A stretch of DNA of 64,000 bases from Pseudoalteromonas nigrifaciens (GTDB lineage: Bacteria > Pseudomonadota > Gammaproteobacteria > Enterobacterales > Alteromonadaceae), in the NCBI RefSeq assembly GCF_002221505.1, contig NZ_CP011036.1, positions 1,488,001 through 1,552,000 on the forward strand, in the 5' to 3' direction. Below the pieces are notes generated by a model that made no database searches, was not told where the DNA came from, and saw nothing but the letters and a program-made list of their open reading frames with translations. Shown here in pieces: positions 26,998 to 34,959 of this stretch (its first letter is position 1; each line of letters begins with the position of its first letter). A program made the position numbers and the translations under genes.

Positions 26998-27819
26998 TTA
27001 AAGCGCTGTAGCAGCTTTCATTTTAGTTACAAAGGCTTTTAATTGTGTGGTCATGGTGGGTAAATCATCAAGGTTTGCTTCGATAATTTTAACCACTGCC
27101 GAGCCCGAAATAGCCCCCGCAGCACCGGCATTTAATGCGGCTTTTACATCATCAGGCGTTGAAATACCAAAACCTAATAGTGCTGGTGCGCTATGGTATT
27201 CTTTTAATTTAGTTACAATGTTGCCCGCTGGCATTTGCGCTTTTTCGTCAGTGCCGGTAACTCCCGCACGCGACAGTAAATAGGTGTAACCTCTGCCATA
27301 CGATGCGCATGCACGAAGCGTGTCGTCATCAGCATTAGGGGTGGCAATAAAGATAGGGTCTACACCGTTTGCCATGGCTGCCTTTCTAAATGTTTTTGAC
27401 TCATGCAGTGGCACATCGGCCACTAAAATAGAGTCTACGCCGGCGGCTTTAGCATCTTTATAAAAGGTGTCTATACCGCGCTTAAAAACTAAGTTTGAAT
27501 ACAGTAATAAACCAATTGGAATATCTGCATTGTACTGGCGTATTTGTTTAATAATATCAAAGCAGTCTTGGGTGTTAATGTGTACATTAAGGGCGCGAAT
27601 ATTTGCTTTTTGAATGACTGGTCCATCTGCGATTGGATCTGAAAACGGAATACCTAACTCTAGGGCGTCGGCGCCACCATCAATTAAACTTTTAATAATA
27701 GCAATACTTTGCTCTTTACCGGGGTCGCCAATAGTTACAAAGGGTACAAATGCCCCGTGTTTTTGCTCATTTAGGGCTGCAAACATTTTACCGTAGCGAT
27801 CTGTTTTTACTTGGCTCAT
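26998..27819 (-). CDS. trpA: tryptophan synthase alpha chain
   Basis: 273-aa TIM barrel that cleaves indole-3-glycerol phosphate to indole and glyceraldehyde-3-phosphate. The catalytic Glu is in [19 protein letters not shown] (residues ~47-65, also holding the catalytic Asp), with VADVPLHES on the flexible loop and [14 protein letters not shown] on loop 6. [10 protein letters not shown] and [12 protein letters not shown] bind phosphate. Length is normal. It overlaps trpB by 4 bp and is the last gene of the operon, 18 bp before the terminator. Confidence 0.96.
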
Positions 27820-29000
27820 ATTTGACCTCCTTGCGACAATACATTGTGAACGTGGGCTAAGTCTTTATCGCCTCGGCCACTTAAATTAACCACTATAATG
27901 CTTTCATCAGTTAGCGCTTCTGCATATTTAAGTGCATAAGCGAGGGCGTGGCTAGATTCGAGCGCCGGAATAATACCTTCATTTTTGGCAAGCGACTGAA
28001 AAGCGTCTAGTGCTTCGGTGTCGGTAATGGCTACATATTGTGCACGACCTGTTTCGTGTAAAAATGCATGTTGCGGCCCAACAGCTGGGTAATCAAGGCC
28101 GGCAGATACAGAATACGACTCTTCTATTTGGCCGTCGTCATTTTGCATAATATAGGTGTAAGTACCGTGCAATATACCTTTAGTGCCTTTACAAATAGTA
28201 GCACCGTGCTCGTGTGTATCTAAACCTTTACCAGCAGGCTCAACACCAATGAGCTTTACACTTGGCTCGTTAATAAAATCACTAAACATACCAATGGCAT
28301 TAGAACCGCCGCCAACACAGGCAATAACGGCATCAGGTAGGCGACCTTCAGCTTTTAGCACTTGTTGTTTTGCTTCTTCACCAATAATTTTTTGGTATTC
28401 ACGCACAATAGTTGGGAATGGGTGTGGGCCCGCTGCAGTACCAAGTAGGTAGTGCGCATCTTGATAATTTGCTGACCAGTCACGTAGTGCTTCGTTTACA
28501 GCATCTTTTAATGTGCCTGAACCCGCTGTTACCGGAATCACAGTCGCGCCCATTAGCTCCATTCTAAATACGTTTGGTTGCTGGCGTTCAACGTCTTTTG
28601 CACCCATGTAAATACGGCATTTTAAACCCAGCAGAGCACAAGCAAGTGCTGTAGCAACACCATGTTGGCCTGCACCTGTTTCGGCAATAACCTCTGTTTT
28701 ACCCATACGTTTAGTTAATAACGCTTGGCCAAGTACTTGGTTAGTTTTGTGCGCGCCACCGTGCAGTAAATCTTCACGCTTTAAATACAGTTTAACCTTT
28801 GGGTTTTTAATTAAATTACGCGTTAAAGTAAGTGGCGTAGGGCGACCCGCATACTCGTTAAGTAATTTTGAAAGCTCAGCCTGAAACTGTGGATCTTTTT
28901 GTGCTTTGTTAAATTCGTTTTCTAACTGCTTAAGCGCAGGGACAAGTAGCTCGGGTACAAACATACCGCCAAACTCGCCAAAATAAGCTGGATTTTTCAT
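27816..29000 (-). CDS. trpB: tryptophan synthase beta chain
   Basis: 394-aa PLP enzyme that joins indole and serine to tryptophan in the alpha2beta2 complex with TrpA. The PLP lysine lies in [20 protein letters not shown], the phosphate-binding loop is [12 protein letters not shown], and [15 protein letters not shown] is the conserved catalytic Glu region. [13 protein letters not shown] is at the N-terminus. All are intact and the length is as in E. coli (397). It starts 8 nt after the trpCF stop. Confidence 0.96.
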
Positions 29001-29007
29001 TTTAACC

Positions 29008-30372
29008 TCAATAATTTCTAATACTTGTAAATGCGTTTTGTAATTTGTTAGGGCACTTTTTACCCGGAGACTGTTCCACTCCAGAATTAAGGTCTAGCCC
29101 TAAGGCGCCTTGAAAAAGTGCCTCTTTAATGTTCTCAGGATTTAAGCCTCCAGCAAGCATAAAGGGGGTGGTGGCATCACGTAGCACCGACCAATCAAAT
29201 GTTTTACCTGTACCGCCAGCTTGGGTGTTGCTGTGGGTGTCGTACAAAATGCGATCAACACCATGTACTGGAGTCGGCAATGCATCTTTTATTGCCTGTG
29301 CTTTCCAAATTTCGCAGTCGCTAGGTAGTTGTGTACGCAAGGTGGTAATGTAATCGTCACTTTCTTGACCGTGTAATTGCACTGCCGCCAATTTTAACAC
29401 ACTTGCGTACTGGGCTACTTGCTCTATAGGCGCATCTACAAATACCCCAACAAAGTTAAGCGGTGCACTTTGGCTAAGCTCTATGGCGCAGTCTAAGTCG
29501 ACATAACGAGGCGACTTAGAATGAAAAATTAACCCGCCATATACGGCGCCACTTTCATACGCTGCAAGCGCATCTTGGCTGCGCGTTAAGCCACATACTT
29601 TGTTATCGCCTAATATAACTCTTTTGCAGGCTTGTTCTAAATCGCGTTCGCTCATAAGTGAGCTGCCAATTAAAAAGCCATCGCAAAGTGGCGCTAATCG
29701 TTTTACGTCTTGGTGGGTGTAAATACCCGACTCCGAAATAACGACTTTATTAGCCGGAATAAGTTTACGTAGCTTTTCGGTGGTGGCTAAATCTGTACTT
29801 AAATCGCGTAAGTCTCGGTTGTTAATGCCAATTATTTTAGCATCAAGGGCAAGCGCACGGTGTACTTCTGCTTCGTTACTTACCTCAGTTAGCACCGACA
29901 TATTTAACGAGTCAGCAACGCTATGCAATGCTTTATAGCTTTCATCGTCAAGTACTGAGAGCATTAATAATATAGCGTCGCCGCCATAAATACGCGCCAT
30001 ATATACTTGATACTCGTCTATAAAAAAATCTTTGCAAATAAGAGGTTGCTCTACTTGGCTACGTACAAACTCTAAGTAATCAAAGCTACCTTGAAAATAC
30101 TTGGTGTCGGTTAGCACGCTCATACAGCTGGCATACTTTTTATAAACCGAGGTTATTTCTGTTAAATTAAAAGGTTCTCTAATAAGCCCTTTAGACGGCG
30201 ATGCTTTTTTACATTCTAAAATAAACTGAATGCCAGGGGCTGCAAGTGCTTTATAAAAGCTGCGAGTTGTTGGCACCGCAAGGTGCTTAAAGCTATCTAG
30301 TGGGCGAGCGGCTTTGCGCTCAATTAGTTCTAATTTTTTATCAGCAACAATTTTGTCTAATACATTAGCCAT
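29008..30372 (-). CDS. trpCF: indole-3-glycerol-phosphate synthase / phosphoribosylanthranilate isomerase
   Basis: 454-aa bifunctional enzyme. Residues 1-~255 are TrpC ([15 protein letters not shown] with catalytic Lys and Glu, [34 protein letters not shown]). Residues ~256-454 are TrpF ([19 protein letters not shown] with the catalytic Cys, [26 protein letters not shown]). The two perform successive steps from phosphoribosylanthranilate. The fusion is usual in gammaproteobacteria. The start overlaps trpD by 8 bp. Confidence 0.96.
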
Positions 30373-31432
30373 TACTTACCTCAATAATTGCATTTAGTGT
30401 GTTCATGGCTTGCCCTGAACTTAATAACGTGTGTACTTGTTGTGCGCCGTCTTTTAGCGATTGCGCTTTACCACTTAGGTATAACAGTGCGGCCACATTA
30501 ACAATAATAGCGGCATTATGCGCTTCATCACCCTTACCTTGCAAAATAGCAAGAGAGACATTAGCGTTGTATTGTGGGCCTTCACCGGTTAGTTGTTCAA
30601 GTGAATAGTTTGCAAGGTCAAAGTCACTTGGGTTAAGCGTATACTCGCTAATGTTGCCATTATTTAGCTCAACCACAGTAGTTGGGCCGTGCAGAGCAAT
30701 TTCGTCGGTGCCAGAGCCATGTACTATCATTGCGCGCTTGGTGCCTAGGGTTCTTAATGTTTGTGCCATAGGTAGGCATAAATTGGGGTTGTATACCCCG
30801 AGTAACTGTACTTCAGGCGCCGCTGGATTTACCAAAGGCCCTAAAATATTAAAAATAGTGCGTGTTTTAAGGGCAGTACGTACTCCCATTGCGTGGCGTA
30901 CGCCTGGGTGGTACTGAGGTGCAAACAAAAAAGTAAAGCCTGTTTGTTCTAAGCAATTTGCCGCTTGTGCTGGCGTCATTTCAATATTGATGCCCAATGC
31001 TTTGAGCAAATCGGCAGAGCCTGAGTTACTCGAGACACTGCGATTACCGTGTTTTACCATATTAATACCTGCCGCGGCTGCAACAATAGCAGCGGTAGTG
31101 CTAATATTAATTGTATTAGAGCCATCGCCACCGGTGCCGCAGCAATCAGCAAGTTGGTTACGGGTAGTATTAAAGGCGAGCGCATTTTCTCGCATAGACG
31201 CCGCAGCGCCAGCTATTTCATCGCTGATTTCGCCTTTTGATTTTAACGCTATAAGCAGTGCGCTAAGCTCAATATCACTCATGTTACCTTGCATTATTTC
31301 ATCAAACAGCGCTTTAGATTGCGTGTAGCTTAATGATTGGTTGCTTATCAGTTGCTCAATTGCAGTTTGAATGCTCGCATTGTGCATATTAGCACTGAGA
31401 ACATTAATGTTTTGCTTGGTTTGTATACTCAT
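30365..31432 (-). CDS. trpD: anthranilate phosphoribosyltransferase
   Basis: 355-aa enzyme transferring phosphoribose from PRPP to anthranilate. The PRPP glycine-rich loop is CCGTGGDGSNTINIST (~residue 97-112), with KHGNRSVSSNSGSADLLKALG after it and NILGPLVNPA and VHGSGTDEI in the C-terminal lobe. It is monofunctional, not fused to trpG as in E. coli. The N-terminus carries ~18 residues more than the core family. AGGAG precedes the ATG. Confidence 0.96.
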   Translation of the reverse strand: MSIQTKQNINVLSANMHNASIQTAIEQLISNQSLSYTQSKALFDEIMQGNMSDIELSALLIALKSKGEISDEIAGAAASMRENALAFNTTRNQLADCCGTGGDGSNTINISTTAAIVAAAAGINMVKHGNRSVSSNSGSADLLKALGINIEMTPAQAANCLEQTGFTFLFAPQYHPGVRHAMGVRTALKTRTIFNILGPLVNPAAPEVQLLGVYNPNLCLPMAQTLRTLGTKRAMIVHGSGTDEIALHGPTTVVELNNGNISEYTLNPSDFDLANYSLEQLTGEGPQYNANVSLAILQGKGDEAHNAAIIVNVAALLYLSGKAQSLKDGAQQVHTLLSSGQAMNTLNAIIEVSNG

Positions 31433-31443
31433 TATGTTCTCCT

Positions 31444-32046
31444 TTATTGGCTAGCGGTTAAGTAGGCAATGCTTTGCTGTAATAGCTGCGCGCCGTTTGG
31501 GGTTAAAATAGACTCAGGATGAAACTGATACCCTAAAACATTGTCATCATGATGATAAATAGCCATAGGAATATCTTGGTATTGGGCAATTACTGCAATA
31601 TTATCAGGCACTTTAGTGGCCATTAAAGAGTGATAACGCGCTACGGGCATAGTGCTGCCCATACCGTTAAATACTGGGTGTTCACCTAAATCAATTATTG
31701 ACGATTTGCCGTGTACGGTTTCCCCAGCATGGCCAATTACGCCGCCATAACTTTGGGTTAAAGCTTGCTGGCCTAAACAAATACCCAGCATAGGGAAGTG
31801 ACCTTTGGTAAGCGCTATTAAATCCATTAAGCAGCCTGCATTACTTGGTGTGCCAGGGCCTGGGGAAAGTACTAATAGCACTTGGCCTTGTTCTTGGCGC
31901 ATTTTATTAAAAATAACCTCAGCGCTAATATTGTTTCTGTAAACAACCAGTTCACAGCCAAGCATAGTTAGCTCGTCAACTAAGTTATAGGTAAACGAGT
32001 CAAAGTTATCTAAAAAGTAAATTTTAATTGGGTGTTGCTGGCTCAT
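31444..32046 (-). CDS. trpG: anthranilate synthase glutamine amidotransferase subunit
   Basis: 200-aa class I amidotransferase giving ammonia to TrpE. The nucleophile Cys is in LGICLGQQAL, the His/Glu in YQFHPESILT, and FLDNFDSFTYNLVDEL is at the N-terminus. ATG 32046 is chosen: the longer open frame runs back into trpE, and here the start comes 1 nt after the trpE TAA (32048-32050), which fits translational coupling. It is a stand-alone TrpG. RVNMSQQHPIK in the longer reading shows the true Met. Confidence 0.95.
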   Translation of the reverse strand: MSQQHPIKIYFLDNFDSFTYNLVDELTMLGCELVVYRNNISAEVIFNKMRQEQGQVLLVLSPGPGTPSNAGCLMDLIALTKGHFPMLGICLGQQALTQSYGGVIGHAGETVHGKSSIIDLGEHPVFNGMGSTMPVARYHSLMATKVPDNIAVIAQYQDIPMAIYHHDDNVLGYQFHPESILTPNGAQLLQQSIAYLTASQ

Positions 32047-32047
32047 G

Positions 32048-33616
32048 TTAACCCGCCTCGAAAGTAGATTTAATAGCGGTAATAACCGCTTGTGCTTTAG
32101 CACGGGTTTCGTTTGCTTCTGACTGCGGATCTGAATCAAATACCACTCCGGCTCCGGCTTGCACGTAAGCAATATTATTTTTTACAAAAGCTGAGCGAAT
32201 AACAATGCAGGTATCCATAGCGCCATCACCGGTTAAATAACCTACAGCGCCACCGTAGCTACCACGGCGTTTACCTTCGGTTTGGCGCACAAGTTCTGCA
32301 GCGCGTACTTTTGGTGCACCAACTAAGGTTCCCATGTTCATACATGCTTGGTATGCGTGTAGTGCATCAAGCTCTGGCTTTAGCGTGCCGACAACGCGCG
32401 ACACTAAATGCATTACTTGAGAGTAGCGGTCTACTTTTAATAGCTCTTTTGCAAAGCGCGTACCGGCTACGCTAATACGGGCAACATCGTTACGGGCTAA
32501 ATCAACTAGCATTAAATGCTCAGCGCGCTCTTTTTGATCGTTTCTCAGCTCAAGCTCGATGCGGCTATCTAAGTCTAGATTTATTTGACCATTCGCAAAT
32601 TTGCCACGCGCTCGAGTACCTGCAATTGGATACACTTCGACCTGTTTTGATGCCACAGTGTATTTAAGTGCTGACTCGGGTGATGCACCAAATAAAGCAA
32701 AGTCTTCGTCGCGCATATAAAACATATACGGGCTGGGGTTTTGCTGTTTAAGTTTGCTGTAAGCATGAAGTGGATCGGGGCAAGGCAGCGAGAAAGTACG
32801 CGAAGGCACAACCTGAAATATATCGCCATCTACAATATTCTTTTTAAGCTTAATTACTTGTTCGCAGTAAGTTTCGTCGCTTATATCAATAGCAACATCG
32901 CATTCGCCGCTTTGCATCTTGGCGCTAAATTGTGCAGCGTTATCGCATAAGGTATTTAAGCGCTCTAACTCTTTACCTACTTCAAAGCAGTTTGCATGTA
33001 CGTCGGGGCCATTAAATACATTACCAATAAGTTCTGTGGTTTGTTTTTGATGATCAATTACCACTAGTGTTTCGGCTAAATAAAATACGTAATCGGGGCA
33101 GGTGTTTTCGCCGTCTGGCACATCACTTAACTGTTCAAAATTGGCTACCATATCGTAGGCAAATACACCGCCTAAAAAAACCGAAAAAGGATTGTTGGTG
33201 GTGCTTTTAATACTGTTAATACAGGTGCGCAGTGCACTGAATGCATTATCGGCAACCAACTTACTCGCTTCGTCAATATCATTGTTTGAGCTTAAGTACG
33301 CAAGCGTTAATGTTGTCTCGTTTAGAGTGGCTTCGCAGCTTTTTACATTGGTTTGTAAATAGCTTAGTAGCTGTTGCCCATTATTTGATTGCGCTGTAAT
33401 CGTTACGGTTTTACCCTGGCATACAATACGCAGTGCGCAATCAACTAAAATTAAACTTTTAACACTGTCTTTAGACTCAATTTCAGCCGACTCAAGCAGT
33501 AGCGAATTTGGCTTATCAAGTGCGCTATATAGTGCAAGCGGGCTACTAATATAGTCGCGTACTTGCGTAATGCTGGTTACTTCACCTGGTGTGGTAGTTA
33601 TGTGACTAAAAATCAA
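32048..33616 (-). CDS. trpE: anthranilate synthase component I
   Basis: 522-aa chorismate-binding enzyme making anthranilate with TrpG. LLLESAEIESKD near residue 40 is the conserved LLES tryptophan feedback-inhibition site. The catalytic C-terminal half has GDIFQVVPSRTFSLP, ARGKFANGQINLDLDSRIEL, split here as AGTRARGKF and DLDSRIELELRNDQKERAEH, and GKRRGSYGGAVGYLTGDG. It starts at TTG 33616, with GAGGG about 8 nt upstream; no ATG lies nearby in frame. It is first in the operon, directly after the second attenuator. Confidence 0.95.
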   Translation of the reverse strand: MIFSHITTTPGEVTSITQVRDYISSPLALYSALDKPNSLLLESAEIESKDSVKSLILVDCALRIVCQGKTVTITAQSNNGQQLLSYLQTNVKSCEATLNETTLTLAYLSSNNDIDEASKLVADNAFSALRTCINSIKSTTNNPFSVFLGGVFAYDMVANFEQLSDVPDGENTCPDYVFYLAETLVVIDHQKQTTELIGNVFNGPDVHANCFEVGKELERLNTLCDNAAQFSAKMQSGECDVAIDISDETYCEQVIKLKKNIVDGDIFQVVPSRTFSLPCPDPLHAYSKLKQQNPSPYMFYMRDEDFALFGASPESALKYTVASKQVEVYPIAGTRARGKFANGQINLDLDSRIELELRNDQKERAEHLMLVDLARNDVARISVAGTRFAKELLKVDRYSQVMHLVSRVVGTLKPELDALHAYQACMNMGTLVGAPKVRAAELVRQTEGKRRGSYGGAVGYLTGDGAMDTCIVIRSAFVKNNIAYVQAGAGVVFDSDPQSEANETRAKAQAVITAIKSTFEAG

Positions 33617-33630
33617 ACCTCATTCCCTCA

Positions 33631-33712
33631 AAAAAATAAAACCCCGCAATGCTGTGCAATGCGGGGTTTAAATAACGATATCTAAATTACAAACAGATCA
33701 TTACCGTCCCGC
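33631..33712 (-). promoter_or_regulatory. second (proximal) trp attenuator: antiterminator and terminator
   Basis: Terminator: on the minus strand a 10-bp stem AAACCCCGCA / TGCGGGGTTT (33660-33669 and 33639-33648) followed by a T-rich run to 33631, 15 nt before trpE. Alternative antiterminator: GCGGG (33708-33712) and GTAATGAT (33697-33704) pair with CCCGC (33661-33665) and ATCGTTAT (33672-33679), which sequesters the left arm of the terminator. Ribosome stalling on the TGG TGG codons of the preceding leader (33712-33759) would favour it. Confidence 0.88.
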
Positions 33713-33759
33713 TAAATTAAGCGCCACCAACGATGTGTAAGAGTAAGATTGTTATTCAT
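33712..33759 (-). CDS. second trp leader peptide
   Basis: 15-codon open frame, ATG 33759 to TAG 33712, peptide MNNNLTLTHRWWRLI with two adjacent Trp codons. AGAGG lies 9 nt upstream. It sits directly in front of the second antiterminator/terminator pair. A CGCT-6nt-AGCG hairpin spans the codons after the Trp pair and its stop, fitting the 1:2 pause structure. Classic attenuation logic applies: scarce Trp-tRNA stalls the ribosome and allows trpE transcription. Confidence 0.88.
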   Translation of the reverse strand: MNNNLTLTHRWWRLI

Positions 33760-33845
33760 GTTTTTTAGCCTCTAATGCTTTTTATTTTTTCCAGTCGTTA
33801 CTGGTTAAAAAGATACGTTTAAATAATAATTATAAAATTTAGTGA

Positions 33846-33906
33846 TAAAAAAACCCGCACAGTTGCGGGTTTTGAATATTTGTTAGACACGACAATTCAT
33901 CACCCG
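33846..33906 (-). promoter_or_regulatory. first (distal) trp attenuator: antiterminator and terminator
   Basis: Terminator: a 10-bp stem AAAACCCGCA / TGCGGGTTTT (33864-33873 with 33850-33859) and a T-run reaching 33846. Antiterminator: CGGGT (33902-33906) and TGAAT (33895-33899) pair with ACCCG (33866-33870) and ATTCA (33873-33877), with a symmetric 2-nt internal loop. It follows the WWW leader and precedes the second leader by ~87 nt, so the two attenuators act in series. Confidence 0.88.
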
Positions 33907-33910
33907 GAAA

Positions 33911-33955
33911 TTACGAGTGCCACCACCAAATAGTGTTTAAAGTAGAATTGTTCAT
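33911..33955 (-). CDS. trpL: first trp leader peptide
   Basis: 14-codon leader, ATG 33955 to TAA 33911, peptide MNNSTLNTIWWWHS with three consecutive Trp codons near the end. It begins ~36 nt after the -10 box. The stop codon is 4 nt before the antiterminator's first arm. It matches the usual trpL design of Vibrio and related bacteria. The ribosome-binding site is weak. Confidence 0.92.
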   Translation of the reverse strand: MNNSTLNTIWWWHS

Positions 33956-33990
33956 TATTGTTAATGCTTATAGTGTCTTTAAGTGGCTAC

Positions 33991-34020
33991 AGTAAAACGT
34001 ATCATATGCTTTGATGTCAA
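33991..34020 (-). promoter_or_regulatory. trp operon promoter
   Basis: Minus strand TTGACA (34015-34020), an 18-nt spacer, and TTTACT (33991-33996). The -35 is perfect consensus. I could not identify a clear TrpR operator (GNACT-AGTTNNACT type) over it, so attenuation may be the main control. Confidence 0.75.
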
Positions 34021-34104: not shown

Positions 34105-34959
34105 TTGATAAAATATGATTTACATAGCCATACAACACATTCCGATGGGCAGCTAAGCGTTGCAGAGCTATTGCATCGTGCTGTTGATAAAAATATAGAT
34201 GTGTTTGCTATTACAGATCACGATACTGTGGCTGCCATAAAGCCTGCTCAGCATATTATTGATACCGAAAACCTACCATTATCGCTGATCACTGGAGTTG
34301 AAATATCAACCCGCTGGGAAAGCTTTGAAATTCATATTGTGGGGTTAAATATTGATACTGAAAATTCAGACCTAACGGCTTTATTGCTAGAGCAACAGCA
34401 AAAACGCGAAACTCGCGCGTTAGAAATAGGTACACGCCTAGCTAAAAATGGCTTTGATGATATTTACGAGCAAGCAAAAGAGCTTGCAAAAGATGCGCAA
34501 ATTACTCGCGCGCATTTTGCTCGCGCTTTAATAGCACGCGGTGTTGCAAAAAACTTTCCCGGGGTATTTAAAAAATACTTAGGGCGCGGAAAAACCGGTT
34601 ATGTACCAAGTAGTTGGTGCGATATGAAAACGGCTATTAAGGCGATTCATGCCGCTGGTGGAGTGGCGGTTTTAGCTCACCCTAGCAGTTATCAAATGTC
34701 TAATAAATGGCTACGCAAATTATTGGTTGAGTTTAAATCTGTTGGCGGAGACGCAATGGAAGTTGCTCAGCCTCAGCAAGCACCAAGTGATCGTCAATTT
34801 TTAGGCGAGTTGAGCCGTGAGTATGATTTGTTGTGTTCACAAGGGTCTGATTTTCATTTTCCGACAAGCTACTTAGAGCTTGGTAAAAATCTATACTTAC
34901 CTAAGGATTGCCGCGGCGTTTGGCAAGCTTGGGAAAAGCAAGAAGGAGCAGCAACATGA
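34105..34959 (+). CDS. rnm: PHP-domain 5'-3' exoribonuclease (RNase AM, TrpH/YciV)
   Basis: 284-aa PHP phosphoesterase. Metal ligands appear in order: DLHSHTTHSDG (residues 5-15), FAITDHDT (~36), GVEIST (~65), an ADP-like insertion, VAVLAHPS (~190) and GSDFHFP (~250). E. coli RNase AM (YciV) matures the 5' ends of 23S, 16S and 5S rRNA. The gene is divergent from trp, a conserved placement that gave the older name trpH. It starts at TTG 34105; a TATACT -10-like box lies at 34057-34062. Its stop overlaps the next start (ATGA). Confidence 0.92.
   Translation: MIKYDLHSHTTHSDGQLSVAELLHRAVDKNIDVFAITDHDTVAAIKPAQHIIDTENLPLSLITGVEISTRWESFEIHIVGLNIDTENSDLTALLLEQQQKRETRALEIGTRLAKNGFDDIYEQAKELAKDAQITRAHFARALIARGVAKNFPGVFKKYLGRGKTGYVPSSWCDMKTAIKAIHAAGGVAVLAHPSSYQMSNKWLRKLLVEFKSVGGDAMEVAQPQQAPSDRQFLGELSREYDLLCSQGSDFHFPTSYLELGKNLYLPKDCRGVWQAWEKQEGAAT

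Follow-up and report, generated by a model that had tools for sequence, protein, structure and literature searches.

Two predicted trp-type attenuator units conserved in series ahead of trpE in Pseudoalteromonas

Introduction

The trp leader of Escherichia coli, trpL, carries tandem Trp codons, four RNA segments that form 1:2, 2:3 and 3:4 pairings, and an intrinsic terminator before trpE. In Gram-positive bacteria, tandem T-boxes precede trp operons; these also repeat the sensing of tRNA-Trp ahead of the trp genes, but they bind uncharged tRNA directly and are an RNA unrelated to the one described here. Surveys of attenuators were reportedly made by Vitreschak et al. in 2004 and by the Lyubetsky group.

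In Salmonella, the mgtCBR leader contains two small open reading frames (ORFs) that act as tandem attenuators, with ATP and proline as their signals (PMC3641672). The portion of that article covered here states that a biosynthetic operon is normally under a single attenuator and calls the two-signal mgtCBR case singular. It contrasts mgtCBR with metE, a leader with two predicted intrinsic terminators, and gives metE of B. clausii as a tandem riboswitch (PMC3641672). Tandem glycine riboswitches are treated in a study that also counted Trp leader elements, and the portion of it covered here mentions tandems for glycine riboswitches only (PMC3766115). Leader ORFs near genes are discussed in a further article, which states that a stall at regulatory codons reduces reinitiation (PMC4833913). 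Our literature search, with older subscription papers outside its reach, found no description of a tandem trp attenuator, and such a tandem is likely to be undescribed, while the mechanism type itself is known.

Here we analysed a stretch of 64,000 nt from Pseudoalteromonas nigrifaciens (the window; assembly GCF_002221505.1, contig NZ_CP011036.1, positions 1,488,001 to 1,552,000). Like the E. coli trp attenuator, its trp leader combines a Trp-codon leader peptide, the same segment pairings (predicted) and a terminator ahead of trpE; unlike in E. coli, where there is one unit, two full units are present, and no TrpR was found. The locus resembles mgtCBR, as far as the covered portion of that source describes it, in having two small ORFs in one leader, but the mgtCBR signals differ whereas the two trp units share a signal codon and have a terminator each. 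Tandem riboswitches also place two serial sensing units in one leader, but there the sensor is a ligand-binding RNA and here a translated leader peptide would take that role.

Results

Layout of the trp leader

The window contains a trpE-G-D-CF-B-A operon on the minus strand (26998-33616). TrpE, TrpD, TrpCF, TrpB and TrpA exceeded the cut-offs of their NCBIfam models, and TrpG that of a subfamily model. Beyond the trp leader lies a divergent gene for RNase RNM (PHP; 34105-34959). On the minus strand the parts follow one another as promoter motif, unit 1, unit 2, trpE Shine-Dalgarno (SD) sequence and a TTG start at 33616:

33991-34020, minus strand: promoter, with -35 TTGACA at 34020-34015, an 18-nt spacer and -10 TTTACT at 33996-33991; assigned by consensus
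33911-33955, minus strand: leader peptide 1, MNNSTLNTIWWWHS, with WWW; read from the sequence, Trp codons invariant in 49/49 unique segments
33901-33919, minus strand: segments 1 and 2 of unit 1, CACTCG (33919-33914) being complementary to CGGGTG (33906-33901); predicted pairing
33866-33906, minus strand: antiterminator of unit 1, CGGGT (33906-33902) with ACCCG (33870-33866) plus an inner helix; predicted, -12.3 kcal/mol
33847-33873, minus strand: terminator 1, AAAACCCGC...GCGGGTTTT and a U-run; predicted hairpin, the plus-strand version of which is also in the default scan
33712-33759, minus strand: leader peptide 2, MNNNLTLTHRWWRLI, with WW; from sequence and conservation, with an SD-like AGAGG in front
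33661-33712, minus strand: antiterminator of unit 2, GCGGG (33712-33708) with CCCGC (33665-33661) plus an inner helix; predicted, -14.2 kcal/mol
33631-33669, minus strand: terminator 2, AAACCCCGCATTGCACAGCATTGCGGGGTTT and a T-rich tail; predicted hairpin, arm paired in 64/64 unique unit-2 sequences
32048-33616, minus strand: trpE, first gene of the operon, with a TTG start; over the cut-off of the NCBIfam TrpE model

The antiterminator strand GCGGG of unit 2 begins at the final base of the leader 2 stop codon. The trpE start codon occupies 33614-33616 and, by eye, is TTG in most of 30 genus loci and GTG or ATG in the others. The gap between the units also holds an inverted repeat, CCAGT-AACG-ACTGG (33791-33804, minus strand), with T and A runs on either side, which was seen in the window genome and in locus L002.

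Two leader ORFs with conserved Trp codons

A preliminary description of this DNA had reported two leader peptides with consecutive Trp codons, and we confirmed both ORFs, at 33955-33911 and 33759-33712. When the 400 nt before trpE were shuffled 3000 times with dinucleotide composition kept, one small ORF with WW arose in 41 shuffles and two arose in none; the real sequence has two.

Across the genus, WWW was present in all 49 unique aligned segments of leader 1. In leader 2, the first two Trp codons were invariant in 43/43 unique aligned segments and the third was Arg in 2 of them, the aligned segments of both leaders omitting rows with W-G-W or with fewer than 8 codons ahead of the Trp run. 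Leader 2 reads W-G-W, and so departs from consecutive Trp codons, in L026 and in a named P. lipolytica locus (L034), and in the window its count of Trp codons is one below that of most others. The codons preceding the Trp run are highly variable. After the run of leader 1, Ser is kept in 49/49 and His in 43/49 unique segments, which would be because the CACTCG codons are segment 1, pairing with CGGGTG. By a crude motif search, an SD was absent at leader 1 in 89 and at leader 2 in 30 of the 95 tandem genomes, and the translation efficiency of both leaders is therefore uncertain.

Predicted competing hairpins behind each leader

Each leader had been proposed to be followed by its own antiterminator and terminator, and folding predicted both structures for both units at the positions listed above. 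In the predicted folds, the terminator arm pairs downstream in 60/63 unique unit-1 and 64/64 unique unit-2 sequences; with the 3' arm not yet made, it pairs upstream as an antiterminator in 57/63 and 55/64, respectively. In both units, the predicted antiterminator and terminator are mutually exclusive. Where the antiterminator failed to form, a 1:2-type hairpin appeared instead in 6/6 cases for unit 1 and, for unit 2, in 7 of the 8 cases printed out of 9. Compared with shuffled sequences, the terminators had median z values of -4.3 (unit 1) and -5.2 (unit 2), and the antiterminators of -2.35 (unit 1) and -0.83 (unit 2, only slightly stabler than shuffles). A terminator hairpin stands behind each leader in 95/95 tandem loci, and a stricter scan found both in 93 of these.

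Pairs were then counted with an anchor-based script, without a shuffle control; a MAFFT alignment of unit 2 that put the terminators out of register was excluded from the counts. The third pair inside the unit-1 terminator core was A-T in 15, T-A in 14, G-C in 19 and T-G in 1 of 63 sequences, and unpaired in 14. Just outside the unit-2 terminator core, the pair was A-T in 55, G-C in 7 and G-T in 2 of 64. The antiterminator cores were near-invariant (for unit 2, C-G in 63/63 and G-C in 61/63). Within these sequences, covariation backs the predicted terminators and not the predicted antiterminators. Seen by eye, the inner antiterminator helix changes in step; run on the unit-1 alignment, RNAalifold returned the outer helix only.

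Covariance and Rfam searches

The covariance search suggested earlier was run across Pseudoalteromonas trp upstream regions with a model built from 25 unit-1 sequences only. In the 98 genus loci it gave 191 matches at E<=0.01, which were unit 1 in 98/98 loci and unit 2 in 93/95 tandem loci, L024 and L026 being the two in which unit 2 was missed. At this threshold, no match fell outside the two units in 194,840 bases of genus loci. Against the whole genome, with 150 of 2286 candidates scored, the model gave at least 25 matches at E<=1, and unit 2 was not among the matches listed. The 24.7 bits of the window's unit 2 lie inside the range of the other genome-wide matches, and because many of these reach its score we rejected the model alone as an identifier of unit 2.

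The Rfam Trp_leader model (RF00513) scored unit 1 at 32.4 bits and unit 2 at 26.4 bits, both below its gathering score of 41, and neither is counted as a member of that family. Genome-wide it gave at least 58 matches at E<=1 with 150 of 566 candidates scored; unit 1 was second among the matches listed and unit 2 was not among them. The best listed match, at 41.4 bits, lacks a Trp leader ORF and is apparently the ordinary terminator of a gene that by eye resembles a TonB receptor gene. This score is unspecific in the source genome and was rejected as proof of the units. A His_leader search of the genome returned seven weak matches, none over the cut-off. Four of these were the two faces of two places, where a look for small ORFs found none with a His run, and one was unit 2 itself. 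What carries weight is the pair of Trp ORFs together with the competing pairings, the position and the conservation; taken by themselves, structure scores prove little.

A conserved promoter motif only upstream of unit 1

The motif TTGAC(A/T/C)-N16-19-TTTACT lies ahead of leader 1 in 93 of the 95 tandem genomes, with a spacer of 18 in 86 and of 17 in 7. It is the only conserved promoter motif of the leader. The default promoter scan lacks it, as that scan requires A at the second -10 position.

If unit 2 were instead transcribed mainly from its own promoter between the units, the locus would hold two switches in parallel on two transcripts, a reading that we consider quite improbable. The window genome offers it the most room, its AT-rich gap of 87 nt between U-run and second start codon being the longest seen. 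The best promoter-like score in that gap was 8 of 12, which is shuffle level, and the default scan finds no promoter between the window's units, though it also misses the upstream one. More generally, the best inter-unit scores do not exceed those of mononucleotide shuffles, which were drawn from one in three of the 95 rows (60/640 draws being too short to score) and from a stretch slightly different from the scored one (30 nt past the leader-1 stop to leader 2); this agrees with the earlier remark that no good promoter separates the units. The gap ranges from 2 to 87 nt with a median of 24, and is at most 35 nt in 68/95 tandem genomes, where such a promoter would need to lie within terminator 1. 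We thus prefer a single transcript that carries both units.

Conservation of the tandem in the genus

The anatomy of two complete attenuators in series, as first proposed for the window, is supported and conserved in the genus. Both Trp leader ORFs occur in 96/99 Pseudoalteromonas genomes, namely in 95 of the 98 with a trpE match at threshold and in the 99th, G060. The trpE frame of the latter (G060:C2:1770224-1771783) is broken by stops, through an assembly error or as a pseudogene. One Trp leader ORF was found in 3/98 loci, and four of the 95 tandem loci add an unrelated ORF far upstream. Among the named Pseudoalteromonas loci, mostly repeats of the same species, 39/40 have both leaders and L062 has one. 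In L143, an extra 265 nt separates both units from trpE when compared with close relatives (L142, for example), likely through an insertion in the stretch that joins terminator 2 to trpE.

It might be argued that unit 1 regulates alone, unit 2 being a decaying relic or a mere back-up terminator with a leader that has ceased to respond to Trp. The missing Trp codon in the window's leader 2 would fit this, as would the NBT06-2 clade (Pseudoalteromonas sp.; L165, L167 and L168, 3/98 loci), in which leader 2 is lost and two terminators stand back to back behind leader 1. We give this explanation little credence, as unit 2 has retained its Trp codons and its predicted terminator and antiterminator even though TrpE identity falls to 70% in the genus. 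A unit 2 that senses Trp-tRNA itself is the reading we favour.

For the NBT06-2 clade we also considered a relay between the free 3' arm of terminator 1 and the 5' arm of terminator 2. The two are complementary, but with the antiterminator held their pairing was computed to be weaker than the second terminator by 1.6-4.0 kcal/mol. The relay is not claimed, because such complementarity arises between any two like terminators.

Relatives and the origin of unit 2

Outside the genus, 113 family genomes had a trpE match and the leaders of 81 were taken. These comprised 49 loci with one Trp leader (WWWH in 40, as in unit 1), 18 with two such ORFs and 14 with none; in 40 named loci from outside the genus, one leader was found in 31 (27 WWWH) and two in 9. 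As most single leaders are WWWH like unit 1, unit 2 is probably the addition, inserted downstream of the old attenuator and ahead of trpE. In a TrpE tree that omits 12 near-copies, Pseudoalteromonas forms one group of 28 rows with support 99, of which 27 are tandem and one has lost leader 2. Two labels in this tree are wrong: L261 is marked S (its TrpE is identical to that of L078, marked U), and L107 is marked U with a second terminator present.

Duplication and independent origin had both been left open for the second unit. Duplication is favoured in the T1lg-like clade, where the two units of 3/4 loci are 82-85% identical over 34 nt past the Trp run (median over 95 loci, 32%), suggesting that unit 2 is likely a duplicate of unit 1 there. 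In the other tandem loci the origin is too old for the two to be told apart.

Full tandems were also recognized by eye in the Algicola-like loci L070, L180 and L181, of which L070 and L181, on contigs of equal length, are probably one genome, and in the Rheinheimera mesophila-like loci L103, L107 and L218. The strict terminator threshold misses terminators that are plain by eye in L218, L041, L055 and L081. At L203, L212, L217, L220, L229, L234, L239 and L241, a DAHP-synthase-like frame (by eye) ends right before trpE, so any Trp leader of those loci would sit further upstream.

Second upstream ORFs in other lineages

Thirteen loci that we call Colwellia-like by resemblance (L215, L216, L231, L236, L240, L242, L243, L247, L248, L252, L255, L258 and L259) carry a Trp-rich upstream ORF (uORF) before trpE, WF(I/L/M)WWL(L/Q)P(I/L)YAG, and no terminator was found behind it in any of them. 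Because the codons for Pro, Leu, Tyr, Ala and Gly show synonymous variation, selection seems to act on the peptide itself, perhaps as an arrest peptide that responds to Trp and affects the translation of trpE. A second uORF with WRW and no clear terminator precedes trpE in other families of the order, in 5/6 loci of f11, 3/3 of f12 and 5/5 of f25 (L265-L267, L275, L280, L282-L285, L292, L293, L299 and L300). Some Rheinheimera loci have a uORF reading ISWRWWQFS...GP.

These second Trp-rich uORFs without a clear terminator, and the position of unit 2 next to the trpE start, would suit a unit 2 that controls the translation of trpE instead of its transcription. In Pseudoalteromonas, however, a U-run closes off the second hairpin and the trpE SD lies outside that hairpin, and we regard translational control by unit 2 as highly improbable; transcription attenuation remains our reading of it.

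TrpR in the family

The TrpR model PF01371 had no match in the source genome. Over the cut-off it matched 0/118 sampled family genomes, with 6 weak matches below, and 39/119 genomes of the order. The suggestion that the tandem compensates for a missing TrpR operator is weakened by these results, since TrpR was also not found in single-attenuator genera of the family. Missing TrpR as a sufficient cause of the tandem was rejected: TrpR was over the cut-off in 0/118 family genomes, yet 49/81 family loci are single-leader.

Discussion

We consider it very probable that a single promoter yields one transcript on which two transcription attenuators follow each other, both ribosome-mediated and of the E. 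coli trp type. From the sequence we infer that both leaders would be translated and that termination would occur at both sites, coupled to that translation, with multiplied effect. When Trp-tRNA is plentiful, the ribosome would complete leader 1, the 1:2 hairpin would form and terminator 1 would halt most polymerases. Polymerases that pass terminator 1 would reach leader 2, where a new ribosome would make the same check, now for terminator 2. Under a shortage of Trp-tRNA, ribosomes would stall at the Trp codons in both leaders, the antiterminators would form and polymerase would pass both sites. The two readthrough probabilities would then multiply to set the expression of trpE, and their logarithmic sensitivities to Trp-tRNA would add.

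A wider proposal, which we put forward as doubtful but possible, is that a two-stage Trp-tRNA checkpoint extends through the order. It would consist of a recurrent second Trp-rich uORF that lies past the ordinary attenuator and before trpE, perhaps encoding an arrest peptide in the Colwellia-like genera and belonging to a full transcription attenuator in Pseudoalteromonas and in the Algicola-like and Rheinheimera mesophila-like genomes.

Textbooks present the trp attenuator as a single switch for its operon, and this genus keeps two that would read one amino acid. Single units, tandems, tandems that have lost leader 2 and second uORFs without a terminator together form a natural series of variants. 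The tandem may widen the regulatory range in a lineage without TrpR, and Pseudoalteromonas offers a direct test of whether serial attenuators multiply and sharpen the response, and of how a family with no TrpR found gains range.
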